A DNA stretch of 64,000 bases from Alphaproteobacteria bacterium. Its GTDB lineage: Bacteria; Pseudomonadota; Alphaproteobacteria; Rhodobacterales; Rhodobacteraceae. Location: assembly GCA_030428355.1 (NCBI GenBank), contig JAUIBL010000011.1, positions 1-64,000 of the forward strand, read 5' to 3'. Shown here one piece after another: positions 53,526 through 58,399 of the stretch. Below the pieces are notes generated by a model. The model did no database searches. It was given only the letters and a program-made list of their open reading frames with translations, and was not told the DNA's origin. A program made the position numbers and the translations under genes. Positions within the stretch are counted from its first letter, which is position 1, and every line of letters starts with the position of its first letter.

Positions 53526-54803
53526 TCAGCCACGCCGCCGCGCAAGCCACGCCTCGACGCGGGCATTGATCTCGTCCTGAAGCGCCTCGTCCTCGATCTC
53601 CATCACCGCTTCGGCCAGAAAGGCGATGGTGAGCAGGTCGGTCGCCGGCCCCTCTTCGATCCCGCGCGAGCGCAGGTAGAAAAGCCCCTCCTCGTCGATC
53701 GCCCCCGAGGTCGATCCGTGCGAACAGGCCACGTCATCCGCGTAGATCTCAAGCTCCGGCTTGGCAAGAAACTGGCTGTCCTCGTCCAGCAACAACGACT
53801 GGCTGATCTGGTAGCCGTCGGTCTTCTGAGCGCCTTCCTTGACAAGGATCTTGCCCTGGAACACCCCCGTCGCCCCGTTGCGCAGCACCTTCTTGAACAC
53901 CTGTCGGCTCTCGCAGTTCAGCGCGTCATGGGTGATGAACACCGTGTCGTCATGGTGGAAATCGCCGTCACCGACACAGGCCCCGGCCACATGTGCTGTC
54001 GCATTGTCGCCGGTCAGTTCGATCACACATTCGTTGCGGGTCAGCTTGCCATTGGCGGTCAGGGTGAAGGACTTGAACACCGACTCCTCACCCAGACGGG
54101 TGAAGATCGCCGTGGCCGCACGGCGCTCGTGATCGCGCCCCTGCGCGCGGACATGGTGGAATGTACCCCCATCCGCAATCTCGACTTCCATGCACTTGTT
54201 GAACCGCGCGGCCGCCGGTCCGTTCTCCAGCAGGGTCAGTTCCGCACCGGACTCGATCTTCACAACATGGTGGAGGATCGCGTCAGAAGTCTCTGACAAA
54301 TGGCGATAAACCAGGCTGATCGGCTTCGGCGCGCGGCCCGTGACATGGATCAGCACGCCATCCGTGGCGAACGCCGTGTTCAGCGCCGCCAAGGGGCGCT
54401 GCACCGGAGATTGCCCACGGGCTTCCAGCACACCATAGACATCCTTGGCCCAGTGAATGTCCCGCACATCGGCCAGACGGTCGATGCTGACATGCTCCAT
54501 CGCCAGATCATCCGACTCCTCGGCGCTGAACACACCGTCGATGAACACGATCTTGAGCCTATCAACCTCGCCGAAGATCGGCGCTTCGTCGGTTTCGAGA
54601 AGGGCTGCCTTGGGGGCCTCGGGCTGCACCAGAGTGTCCGGGCGCGTGTACTTCCAATACTCGTCCCGACCGCTTGGCAAACCCATGCTGCGCACCCGCG
54701 CAACGGCATCTTCACGCGCCGCCTGCGCCCAGCCGCCCTGGGGCATGTCAAGCACGGCAAGCCGCGCGTCGGTGGCATCCTGTTTGATCTGCGGCAACGC
54801 CAT
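53526..54803 (-). CDS. sufD: Fe-S assembly scaffold SufD
   Basis: 425 residues, beta-helix scaffold partner of SufB. Typical segments are SIDRLADVRDIHWAKDVYGV, FVTHDALNCESRQVFKKVLR and CSHGSTSGAIDEEGLFYLRS, the last with the conserved His of SufD. It forms SufBC2D with the neighbours. The ATG shares a base with the sufC stop, so the order sufC-sufD is translationally coupled. Confidence 0.93.
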   Translation of the reverse strand: MALPQIKQDATDARLAVLDMPQGGWAQAAREDAVARVRSMGLPSGRDEYWKYTRPDTLVQPEAPKAALLETDEAPIFGEVDRLKIVFIDGVFSAEESDDLAMEHVSIDRLADVRDIHWAKDVYGVLEARGQSPVQRPLAALNTAFATDGVLIHVTGRAPKPISLVYRHLSETSDAILHHVVKIESGAELTLLENGPAAARFNKCMEVEIADGGTFHHVRAQGRDHERRAATAIFTRLGEESVFKSFTLTANGKLTRNECVIELTGDNATAHVAGACVGDGDFHHDDTVFITHDALNCESRQVFKKVLRNGATGVFQGKILVKEGAQKTDGYQISQSLLLDEDSQFLAKPELEIYADDVACSHGSTSGAIDEEGLFYLRSRGIEEGPATDLLTIAFLAEAVMEIEDEALQDEINARVEAWLARRRG

Positions 54804-55558
54804 TACACTGCCTCCGCCAGAAGGTCCGCATAGCCGTTGTTTTCCACCTCAAGCGCAAGCTCGGGGCCACCCGTCTTAATGATCCGGCCATCCGCCATGA
54901 TGTGCACCACATCCGGTTTGATGTGATCCAGCAGACGCTGGTAGTGCGTGATGACAAGGAACCCGCGCCCCTCGTCGCGCAGTGCGTTCACACCGTCGGC
55001 CACCAGCTTCATCGCATCCACGTCAAGGCCCGAGTCGGTCTCGTCAAGGATGCACATCTTCGGCTCGAGCATGGCCATCTGCAGGATTTCGTTGCGCTTT
55101 TTCTCACCACCCGAGAAACCCACATTGACCGGACGCTTCAGCATTTCGGCGTCGATTTTCAGTTCCTTGGCCTTTTCACGCACGACCTTGAGAAATTCGC
55201 TCGCCGACATCTCTTCTTCGCCCCGCGCCTTGCGCTGAGCATTCACCGCCGTCCGCAGGAAGGTCATGTTGCCGACACCGGGGATTTCCACCGGGTACTG
55301 GAACGCAAGAAACACACCCGCCGCCGCGCGCTCTTCCGGCTCCATGTCCAGGATGTCTTCGCCATCCAGCGTCGCCGACCCTTCGGTCACCTCGTAGCCA
55401 TCCTTGCCCGACAGCACATAGGACAGCGTCGACTTGCCCGACCCGTTCGGCCCCATGATCGCATGCACCTTGCCAGCCTCGACCGTCAGGTTCACACCTT
55501 TGAGGATTTGCTTGTCTTCTTCCTCAAGTTGCACGTGCAGATTGGTGATGTTCAGCAT
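54803..55558 (-). CDS. sufC: Fe-S assembly ATPase SufC
   Basis: 251 residues. Walker A GPNGSGKST near residue 36, signature GFSGGEKKRNEILQMAML, Walker B CILDETDSGLD. It is the ATPase of the SufBCD complex. I chose the ATG at 55558 (MLNITNLHVQLEEEDKQIL) because GGAG is nine bases upstream and the family starts here; an ATG five codons further up is possible. The start overlaps the stop of the broken fkbM gene (ATGCTGA). Confidence 0.94.
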   Translation of the reverse strand: MLNITNLHVQLEEEDKQILKGVNLTVEAGKVHAIMGPNGSGKSTLSYVLSGKDGYEVTEGSATLDGEDILDMEPEERAAAGVFLAFQYPVEIPGVGNMTFLRTAVNAQRKARGEEEMSASEFLKVVREKAKELKIDAEMLKRPVNVGFSGGEKKRNEILQMAMLEPKMCILDETDSGLDVDAMKLVADGVNALRDEGRGFLVITHYQRLLDHIKPDVVHIMADGRIIKTGGPELALEVENNGYADLLAEAV

Positions 55559-56347
55559 GTCCATGAACTCCATGTTGTGTCTTCTTCGTGGACGAGAAGA
55601 AAATTCTTGTTCGGGTTGTAGCGCTTCGGTTTCGAATACGCCTTGTAACTGTTTTCGACGAGCCACGCTTCGAAAGCCTGGCGGTTGGTTTTGTCGACCT
55701 CGATCAGCATTCGGGGCCTGTGTCGTTTCACCGTCTCGGTCAGGGACCGAAGCACGTTCATCTCCATCCCTTCCACATCGATCTTGATGAAACTGGCGGC
55801 GCGATCGCCGATCACATCATCTGCACGTACCACGGGGATGGTGTCCTCACCGGGCACAAGCCGCCCTGCCCCGACATTGCCCATGTGAAAATCCATCCCG
55901 AACGCCGTGTCGGTCGCATCCGAAATCCCATATCCCAGCCAGCCAGCCAAGATCAACGCATGTGTCAACCGCGTTCAACATGACATTGTTGACCAGAACC
56001 CTGTAAGCAACCGGATTGGGCTCAACGACGATGACCTCCGTCGGCGCAAGGAACTTGGCCACGAACAGGGCGTGGTTTCCGACATTGGCACCGATGTCGA
56101 CATAAATCCCGCCGGGCGGAAAGGCGCGGCGAATGATCTCCAGTTCCTCTTGTTCGTAGAAGATACCTTTGGCGTGGTAGTTTTTCTGGATCAGGTCCCG
56201 ACGGGCAGCAATCGTGAAAAAAACCGGCTGGCCTGACACCACCGTCCGCACCACGGGCGCGGCCATGAGCCGAAAGACACCTGGGGCGTCCATCAGGTCG
56301 GTCAGCGCTTCCGCGGCGACAGGATTGGTCAGTTCAGCCACAGACAC
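55552..56347 (-). pseudogene. FkbM-family methyltransferase broken by a GGCT repeat
   Basis: Two overlapping frames together make one FkbM methyltransferase. The first part (from ATG 56347) has IYVDIGANVGNHALFVAKFL (SAM motif) and VIVVEPNPVAYRVLVNNVML; the second part has GYGISDATDTAFGMDFHMG, SFIKIDVEGMEMNVL and PRMLIEVDKTNRQ. The frame changes at 55937-55948, where the coding strand reads GGCT three times before GGG. With two copies, DLGWLGYGISDA is read through in one frame and gives 263 residues. As written, the first frame goes on in a wrong reading to a stop at 55847. The start is 5 bases after the UPF0145 stop and the end overlaps sufC, so the gene sits inside the suf operon. FkbM enzymes methylate sugars or other small molecules; the role here is unknown. 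Confidence 0.87.
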
Positions 56348-56352
56348 GGGCC

Positions 56353-56673
56353 TTACCCCCGATCCGTCAGCACAGCGGTGCCGCTTGCCGACACCATCAG
56401 CATCGAATTGCCGACCACTTCGTAATCCAGATCGACGCCCACAACCGCATTGGCCCCAAGCGCCAGCGCCCTCTGTTCCAACTCGCGCATCGCCACGTCG
56501 CGGGCATCCTGCAGCTTGGCCTCATAAGCACCGGACCGGCCCCCGACGATGTCGGTGATCGACGCGAAAATGTCCCGGACCACATTGGCCCCCATGATCG
56601 CCTCGCCCACCACGATCCCTTTGTATTCAAGGATCTTCTGGCCTTCGATGCTGTTGGTCGTCGTGATGATCAT
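56353..56673 (-). CDS. UPF0145/YbjQ heavy-metal-binding domain protein
   Basis: 106 residues: [74 protein letters not shown]. This is the YbjQ family, which forms rings and is labelled putative heavy-metal-binding; function unproven. It overlaps the small membrane gene before it by four bases and is followed by the fkbM gene. Confidence 0.9.
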
Positions 56674-56873
56674 CTATGTCTTTCCATCCAAAGTTTCACT
56701 GCAATTCCAGAGAGACCACCGCAGAGTCCACCGGCCAGCCCAATAACGAAAATCCCGTTCCCGATCCAAAGTGGTGCCGAGAGTAACATCAGGACCCCGG
56801 CGACCACCCCGGTCAACATACCATACTGCCCTTTTGGTTCGGCCGGAGTGGAGAGCCAATGCCAGATCGACAT
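56670..56873 (-). CDS. small two-helix membrane protein
   Basis: 67 residues. The sequence has two hydrophobic stretches, [20 protein letters not shown] and [20 protein letters not shown], and a basic tail KLWMERHR. I do not recognise a family. It lies two bases after the sufB stop and overlaps the UPF0145 gene, so it is translated with them. Confidence 0.7.
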
Positions 56874-56875
56874 GG

Positions 56876-58399
56876 TCAGCCAACAGACCCTTCAAGCGAG
56901 ATCGCCACAAGCTGTTGCGCCTCCATGGCAAACTCCATCGGCAGCGCCTGCAGCACATCGCGGCAGAACCCGTTGACGACCAGAGCCACAGCCTCTTCCT
57001 CGTCCATGCCGCGCTGGCGGCAGTAGAAAAGCTGATCGTCATCCACCTTGGAGGTGGTGGCCTCATGCTCAACACGGCTCGAGTTGTTCTTCACCTCGAT
57101 ATACGGAACCGTATGCGCCCCGCACTTGTCGCCGATCAGCAGGCTGTCACACTGGGTGTAGTTGCGGCTGTTCTTGGCCTTCGGGTGCATCGACACGAGG
57201 CCGCGATAGGTGTTCTGCGCCTTGCCCGCGCTGATGCCTTTCGACACGATCCGCGACTTGGTGTTCTTGCCCAGATGGATCATCTTCGTGCCGGTATCGG
57301 CCTGCTGCATGTTGTTGGCGATGGCGATCGAATAGAACTCGCCCTGGCTGTCGTCGCCGCGCAGGATGCAGGACGGGTATTTCCACGTCACGGCGGACCC
57401 GGTTTCCACCTGCGTCCACATCACCTTGGCGCGATCGCCCCGGCAATCGGCGCGCTTGGTGACAAAGTTGTAGATACCACCCTTGCCGTTCTCGTCACCC
57501 GGATACCAGTTCTGGACGGTCGAATACTTCACTTCGGCGTCTTCCTCGACGATGATCTCGACCACCGCCGCATGAAGCTGCGCGGTATCGCGCTGCGGCG
57601 CGGTGCAGCCTTCGAGATAGGACACGTAAGACCCCTTGTCGGCAATGATCAACGTGCGCTCGAACTGGCCGGTGTTTTCCGCGTTGATCCGGAAATAGGT
57701 GCTCAACTCCATCGGGCAGCGCACGCCCGGCGGCACGTAGACGAACGACCCGTCCGAGAACACAGCCGAATTCAGCGTTGCATAGAAATTGTCCGACACC
57801 GGAACAACCGAGCCCAGATACTTCTTCACCAACTCTGGATGTTCCTTGATCGCCTCGGAGATCGAGCAGAAAATCACGCCCGCCGCCTTCAGTTCCTTCT
57901 GGAACGTCGTGCCGACCGACACGGAGTCGAACACCGCATCGACCGCCACCTTGCGGCCCTCGGCCGGCGCATCCTCGGCCCCTTCGACCCCGGCAAGGAT
58001 CATTTGCTCCTTCAAAGGAATGCCCAGCTTCTCATAGGTCGCCAGCAGCTTGGGATCGACCTCGTCCAACGACTTGGGCTTGGTCTCCATGCTCTTGGGG
58101 CGTGCGTAGTAATACTGGTCCTGAAAGTCGATCTCCGGATAGTCGACCATCGCCCAGGTCGGCTCTTCCTTCTGGAGCCAACGCTCATAGGCCTGCAGAC
58201 GCCACTCGGTCATCCATTCCGGCTCGTCGTTCTTTTCCGAGATCAGACGCACGATGTCCGGGGTCAGACCCTTCGGCGCGTACTCCATCTCGATATCGGT
58301 GTCCCAGCCATATTTGTACTTGCCACCGACCTGGCGCACCGCTTCGACGGTTTCCTGATCCACGCCTTCCTTGACGGTCACATTATCCAAAGCAGCCAT
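56876..58399 (-). CDS. sufB: Fe-S assembly scaffold SufB
   Basis: 507 residues. Signature segments are [18 protein letters not shown] at the start, [20 protein letters not shown] in the middle, [20 protein letters not shown] and [20 protein letters not shown] near the end, the last with the conserved Glu and Cys region where the cluster is built. It is the third gene from iscR and precedes three extra genes before sufC, an unusual break in the sufB-sufC pair. Confidence 0.95.

Follow-up and report, generated by a model that had tools for sequence, protein, structure and literature searches.

An FkbM-family methyltransferase gene in the suf operon of a Marivita genome is split at a four-base tandem repeat

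We analyzed a window of DNA, the whole stretch of 64,000 nucleotides at C49:1-64000 of the draft genome G000, in which an FkbM-family methyltransferase gene in the suf operon is split into two reading frames at a short tandem repeat. The genome belongs to the genus Marivita, and 16 congeners were compared with it. We consider it probable that the split arose as a recent, one-off slip duplication in a chance codon repeat, which knocked out an accessory gene. The gene lies in a part of the operon whose content varies widely, both within Marivita and in other genera of the Rhodobacteraceae.

The split gene and its repeat tract

The original prediction for this DNA held that two minus-strand frames are the halves of one FkbM methyltransferase gene, and both the open reading frames and their matches to the TIGR01444 model agree with it. 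The features of the region, all on the minus strand, are as follows.

53526..54803, minus strand: sufD, downstream of sufC
54803..55558, minus strand: sufC (TIGR01978, 362 bits), likely start ATG 55558
55552..55968, minus strand: second half of the FkbM methyltransferase gene, 138 aa, in a different frame, motif IDVEGMEMNVL
55847..56347, minus strand: first half of the FkbM-family methyltransferase gene, 166 aa, GTG start, motif DIGANVGNH
55935..55949, minus strand: TGGC x3.75 tract of 15 bp, with GGCT x3 at 55937-55948; site of the frame change
56353..56673, minus strand: ybjQ-like gene (PF01906), upstream of the FkbM gene
56876..58399, minus strand: sufB, upstream border of the variable slot

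The frame of the first half runs for 136 codons to DLGWL and then continues with 30 out-of-frame residues and a stop. In the second half, homology begins at about GWLGYGIS and the frame ends at the stop codon 55554-55552. The first half matches positions 2-50 of TIGR01444 and the second half positions 89-142, both above the cut-off, and PF05050 is matched by the second half only. The gene has no uninterrupted single frame in G000, with the break at 55935-55949. The GGCT x3 repeat is present where it had been predicted. Moreover, the proposal that the frame changes at this tetranucleotide repeat is borne out by alignment to the five intact relatives, which places the switch from DLGWL (frame 1) to GYGIS (frame 2) within the tract. 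A MAFFT alignment of the DNA placed the four extra bases nearby as 1+3. We rejected this placement because the conserved residues on either side, with D-x-x-W-x-G in frame, are retained only if the extra bases lie in the tract.

At the break site, the five congener orthologs read D-[LM]-x-W-[LVI]-G-x-G in a single frame, and the first Gly of the window's Gly-Trp-Leu-Gly is Thr, Asn or Ser in these relatives. From this comparison, the repeat is best read as having grown out of the Gly-Trp-Leu-Gly codons.

To describe how unusual the tract is, shuffled sequences were compared with the window. GGCT x3 matches the window once and is found in none of 100 shuffles. Besides the 15-bp TGGC tract, the 64 kb contain no period-4 tract that reaches 12 bp. 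With one such tract against a mean of 1.4 in 60 shuffles, tracts of 12 bp or longer are not in excess; a period-4 tract of at least 15 bp occurred in none of the 60 shuffles. We found no family of similar tracts within the 64-kb window. Across the 17 genomes, the 15-mer has one copy in G000; G009 and G005 each have it at a single place, within another gene or the leader of one. In G005 the identical 15-mer stands in frame within an unbroken gene, presumably that of nicotinate phosphoribosyltransferase.

A longer tract, TGGC x7.75, lies near the start of a gene in G009 (M. lacus; L037:2967-2997, G009:C13:79466-79496). We considered it as a possible second switch and rejected it, as the gene does not read as a methyltransferase; we take it to encode a PLP-dependent decarboxylase. 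As a site of possible repeat-length variation, this tract is more promising than the one in the window.

Predicted fold and function

The intact ortholog of G015 matches TIGR01444 with 82.2 bits against a cut-off of 37.7. Its predicted fold has a pLDDT of 89.6, and the top PDB match is the FkbM structure 2py6 (E 4.4e-9; TM 0.49 by query length). The class I SAM methyltransferase fold was recognized in this ortholog model, not in the window's own protein, and the frame switch maps to the end of strand 133-138 of the model. Judging by families and predicted fold, we say that the product of the intact gene would be a SAM methyltransferase. Our best guess for its substrate is a surface glycan, because glycan enzymes occupy the same slot of the operon in a few genera.

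Both halves match the FkbM family (TIGR01444, PF05050; 2py6), from which the window gene differs in being split in two frames and in lying inside the suf operon. In Vibrio cholerae, RfbT/WbeT is a methyltransferase of a surface sugar, the O-antigen, and its inactivation is described as altering the surface (PMC5051702, PMC9929944). The G015 ortholog matches the Pfam model V_cholerae_RfbT only weakly, with 21 bits and thus below the cut-off of 27.9. RfbT/WbeT differs from the window gene in locus and host, and the inactivation of RfbT described in PMC5051702, in its passages on this gene, does not proceed via a tetranucleotide repeat.

Intact orthologs and the age of the break

Uninterrupted orthologs were found in five of the 16 Marivita congeners (G015, G001, G008, G009 and G005), each matching both halves in one frame and each flanked by ybjQ and sufC like the window gene. 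The other 11 congeners have no ortholog. Neither the tract nor the frame break is present in any of the five orthologs. The same three-unit frame in all relatives, which the original prediction had named as evidence of fixed decay, is thus not what the congeners display. Weak matches elsewhere were seen in G010 (first half, E 2.8e-4) and G012 (second half, E 3.6e-4), on contigs other than those bearing their suf genes.

The window has kept most residues that are invariant among the five orthologs: 52 of 55 in the first half and 45 of 46 in the second (97/101 in total). In a leave-one-out comparison, each intact ortholog keeps a similar share of the residues invariant in the other four, with G001 and G008 weakening each other as controls since they are near-identical. 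Comparison with G015 resulted in dN/dS values of 0.084 and 0.094 for the two halves, which are rough as dS is saturated. Measured as dN to the four other orthologs, the window is close to G015 and slightly larger in 6 of 8 comparisons (4/4 for the first half and 2/4 for the second); selection may have relaxed somewhat, whether earlier than the break or later. The break looks recent, since the sequence of both halves retains the marks of purifying selection. This conservation is compatible with either a fixed break or one allele of a switch and cannot tell the two apart.

Other split genes were sought among 39 non-overlapping G015 ORFs with a counterpart in the window, a set that follows the synteny with G015 (about 20.3-64 kb) and hardly covers the first 20 kb. 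Four ORFs were flagged and one of them, the FkbM gene, is a real split; by inspection, the other three are shadow frames or upstream extensions. The single real split among 39 ORFs speaks for a recent event and against poor sequence quality overall. A six-frame ORF split screen returned mostly antisense shadow frames and missed the FkbM gene in one run; the non-overlapping set was used instead.

Operon context and translation of sufC

The order on the minus strand is sufB, a 65-aa ORF without a Pfam match, the ybjQ-like gene, the split FkbM gene, sufC and sufD, which agrees with the earlier placement of the gene in the suf operon. We take the ORF at 56876..58399 to be sufB from its sequence, and that at 53526..54803 to be sufD from its sequence and its place. 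The overlap of the FkbM gene with sufC was likewise found: with a sufC start at ATG 55558, the two genes share 7 nt. This ATG lines up with the sufC start in relatives; further in-frame ATGs are present at 55564 and 55573. A GGAG is located 9 nt upstream of ATG 55558, and 8-9 nt upstream of the sufC start in G009, G005 and G015. Since GGAG precedes its ATG, sufC can probably start independently of the upstream reading frame. In the broken frame ribosomes would stop at 55847, 288 nt ahead of the sufC ATG, and translational coupling to sufC, or polarity on it, is possible. A scan of 55300-56900 for promoters and terminators found no promoter-like site and a single terminator-like site at 56121-56107 (minus strand, within the first half of the FkbM gene), below the shuffle mean of 1.4.

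The variable slot between sufB and sufC

In the window, the slot between sufB and sufC spans 55559-56875. The gap between ybjQ and sufC was compared in 17 Marivita genomes including G000. The FkbM ortholog is present in 6 of the 17 gaps, two of which also hold a second gene, here called mt2. Two further gaps contain mt2 without the FkbM ortholog, four contain a different FkbM-domain protein of about 290 aa (PF05050, 70 bits in the one scanned), and five are without any such gene. No Pfam or NCBIfam model matched mt2. Its predicted fold (pLDDT 84.5) is a close match to SPO2022 of Ruegeria (Silicibacter) pomeroyi, PDB 3cvo, with TM 0.89/0.92 and 45% identity. SPO2022 resembles mt2, not the split FkbM gene, and is recorded only as methyltransferase-like.

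By flanking DNA, the nearest congeners are G011 (95.0% in sufC, 92.8% at the sufB end) and G006 (89.8% and 93.1%), where the sufC identity excludes G001 and G008 with their shortened loci. Both nearest congeners have empty slots. The best FkbM match is found in G015, the flanks of which are 85.0% (sufC) and 88.2% (sufB end) identical. By this measure, slot content is not a simple function of relatedness. G000 carries two further PF05050 genes in open frames elsewhere (C40 and C66); FkbM-type genes as such are therefore not lost from this genome.

At the G015 locus (L063), the FkbM gene is directly followed by a decayed sufC-like start with an altered P-loop and then by a second FkbM-like C-terminal end. 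This remnant looks like a trace of cassette exchange.

We also scanned 60 genomes from other genera of the family, 58 of which had a sufC match. The gap between sufB and sufC in these 58 genomes ranges from 26 to 3,399 bp with a median of 1,079 bp. At least one of three methyltransferase-type genes occupies it in 23 of the 58, and none of the three in 35: mt2 is present in 19, the FkbM type of the window in five and the other FkbM-domain type in four. Pfam scans covered part of the frames in these gaps. A polysaccharide pyruvyl transferase lies in the gap of three genomes, and all three proteins scanned reach PF04230. In G062 (L230:2425-4059) a single open frame of the gap encodes a family 2 glycosyltransferase fused to mt2; in G070 a 308-aa protein of the gap matched no Pfam family. 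Among the best 80 of 188 FkbM-like loci from named genomes, the FkbM gene is located between sufB and sufC in 52. In Roseovarius sp. ZX-A-9, the mt2 gene of the slot (L151:4621-5215) is also broken; its frame changes at a site that has no tandem repeat.

An extra gene in the gap between sufB and sufC, as in the window, is also described for the isc-suf operon of Rhodobacter sphaeroides, where the hypothetical gene RSP_0439 lies between the two (PMC6956336). According to that paper, non-annotated ORFs vary somewhat among Rhodobacteraceae, and the word methyltransferase is absent from its main text (PMC6956336). A search by title and abstract, with most subscription journals outside its scope, found nothing on FkbM genes or other methyltransferases in the suf slot.

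Discussion

The explanation that we favor begins with an accessory FkbM-family SAM methyltransferase gene that occupies a variable slot in the suf operon. Its Gly-Trp-Leu-Gly codons would by chance have formed a short GGCT repeat in the lineage of G000. There, a single replication slip would have duplicated one four-base unit and changed the frame where a core beta strand ends. Neither half would then be a working enzyme. That the gene is dispensable, with 11 of the 16 congeners lacking it, is probably why its loss is tolerated. The same kind of slip could restore the frame on rare occasions, by accident and not as part of a program. The intact form would most likely methylate a surface sugar, to judge by what occupies the slot in other genera. 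Some observations count against the slip reading: the halves carry no extra damage, as would equally be expected of a switch that spends much of its time on; the length of the tract was unmatched in the 60 shuffles; and dN is slightly larger for the window than for G015 in 6 of 8 comparisons.

The split could instead be an error of sequencing or assembly, or the consensus of a mixed population, with the real gene intact. We give this a small chance. G000 is a draft genome of 83 contigs and 87% completeness, and all five congener orthologs are intact. However, sequencing errors are usually one-base changes in runs, whereas here a whole repeat unit is added, and inspection of the 39 compared ORFs found no other real split.

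It is improbable, in our estimate, that the tract is a phase-variable switch, gaining and losing four-base units so that the methyltransferase is on or off among cells and the surface sugar is altered against phages or predators. Its attraction is that a tetranucleotide unit, which is not a multiple of three, lies inside a coding frame with both halves well preserved, and that some likely surface-glycan enzymes share the slot. There are also precedents. The icaC gene of Staphylococcus aureus, as presented in PMC4117637, slips in a short TTTA tract and, like the window gene, has a four-base tandem unit in few copies, so that gain or loss of a unit changes the frame. Its variants have 4, 5 or 6 TTTA units and revert rarely, about once in 45,000 divisions (PMC4117637). 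In V. cholerae, WbeT (RfbT) has been inactivated repeatedly and has reverted in one clade, by point mutation and insertions according to the account in PMC5051702. In icaC, a polysaccharide gene, reversibility and variation among isolates have been demonstrated (PMC4117637). For Haemophilus influenzae, the threshold for detecting tetranucleotide repeats is given as three units in Table 2 of PMC2651432 and printed as four in its Table 3. Chance alone is expected to produce at most three units in that genome, and a rate of about 1e-4 changes per generation is cited for tetranucleotide repeats (PMC2651432). Against a switch, the tract in the window has only 3.75 units, fewer than four. The relatives do not keep the repeat either: it is absent from the site in all five Marivita orthologs. 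Similarly, no period-4 tract of at least 12 bp occurs anywhere in the ORF among 80 wider FkbM-like ORFs, which are the best 80 of 188 matches and may under-sample broken ORFs. The 15-mer itself has one copy in G000 and recurs in two of the 16 congeners, at a single place in each and in other genes or leaders, and the window has no family of such tracts. Of the original prediction, one FkbM gene in the suf operon broken at a tetranucleotide repeat holds up, and relatives have the intact form; an evolved on/off switch is so far unsupported.

Programmed ribosomal frameshifting across the tract would yield the full protein from two overlapping, conserved frames, but is very improbable, as the five orthologs are single-frame and thus have no signal to conserve, and we know of no slippery motif of the TGGC/GGCT-tract kind.

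A broader idea, which we think unlikely, is that the gap is an exchange slot for surface-glycan enzymes (FkbM- and SPO2022-type methyltransferases, pyruvyl transferase and glycosyltransferase) expressed together with Fe-S assembly, and that the GGCT slip is one of several off-switches, perhaps reversible, under phage pressure. The variability of the slot may matter more than the frame break. Short slips that break a frame are ordinary events; the place of this one is less so. An operon for Fe-S assembly hosts a changing set of methyltransferases in many marine bacteria, which deserves a study of its own. Should these enzymes modify surface sugars, they would link surface chemistry with iron and redox status, and past phage pressure could be read from the slot.
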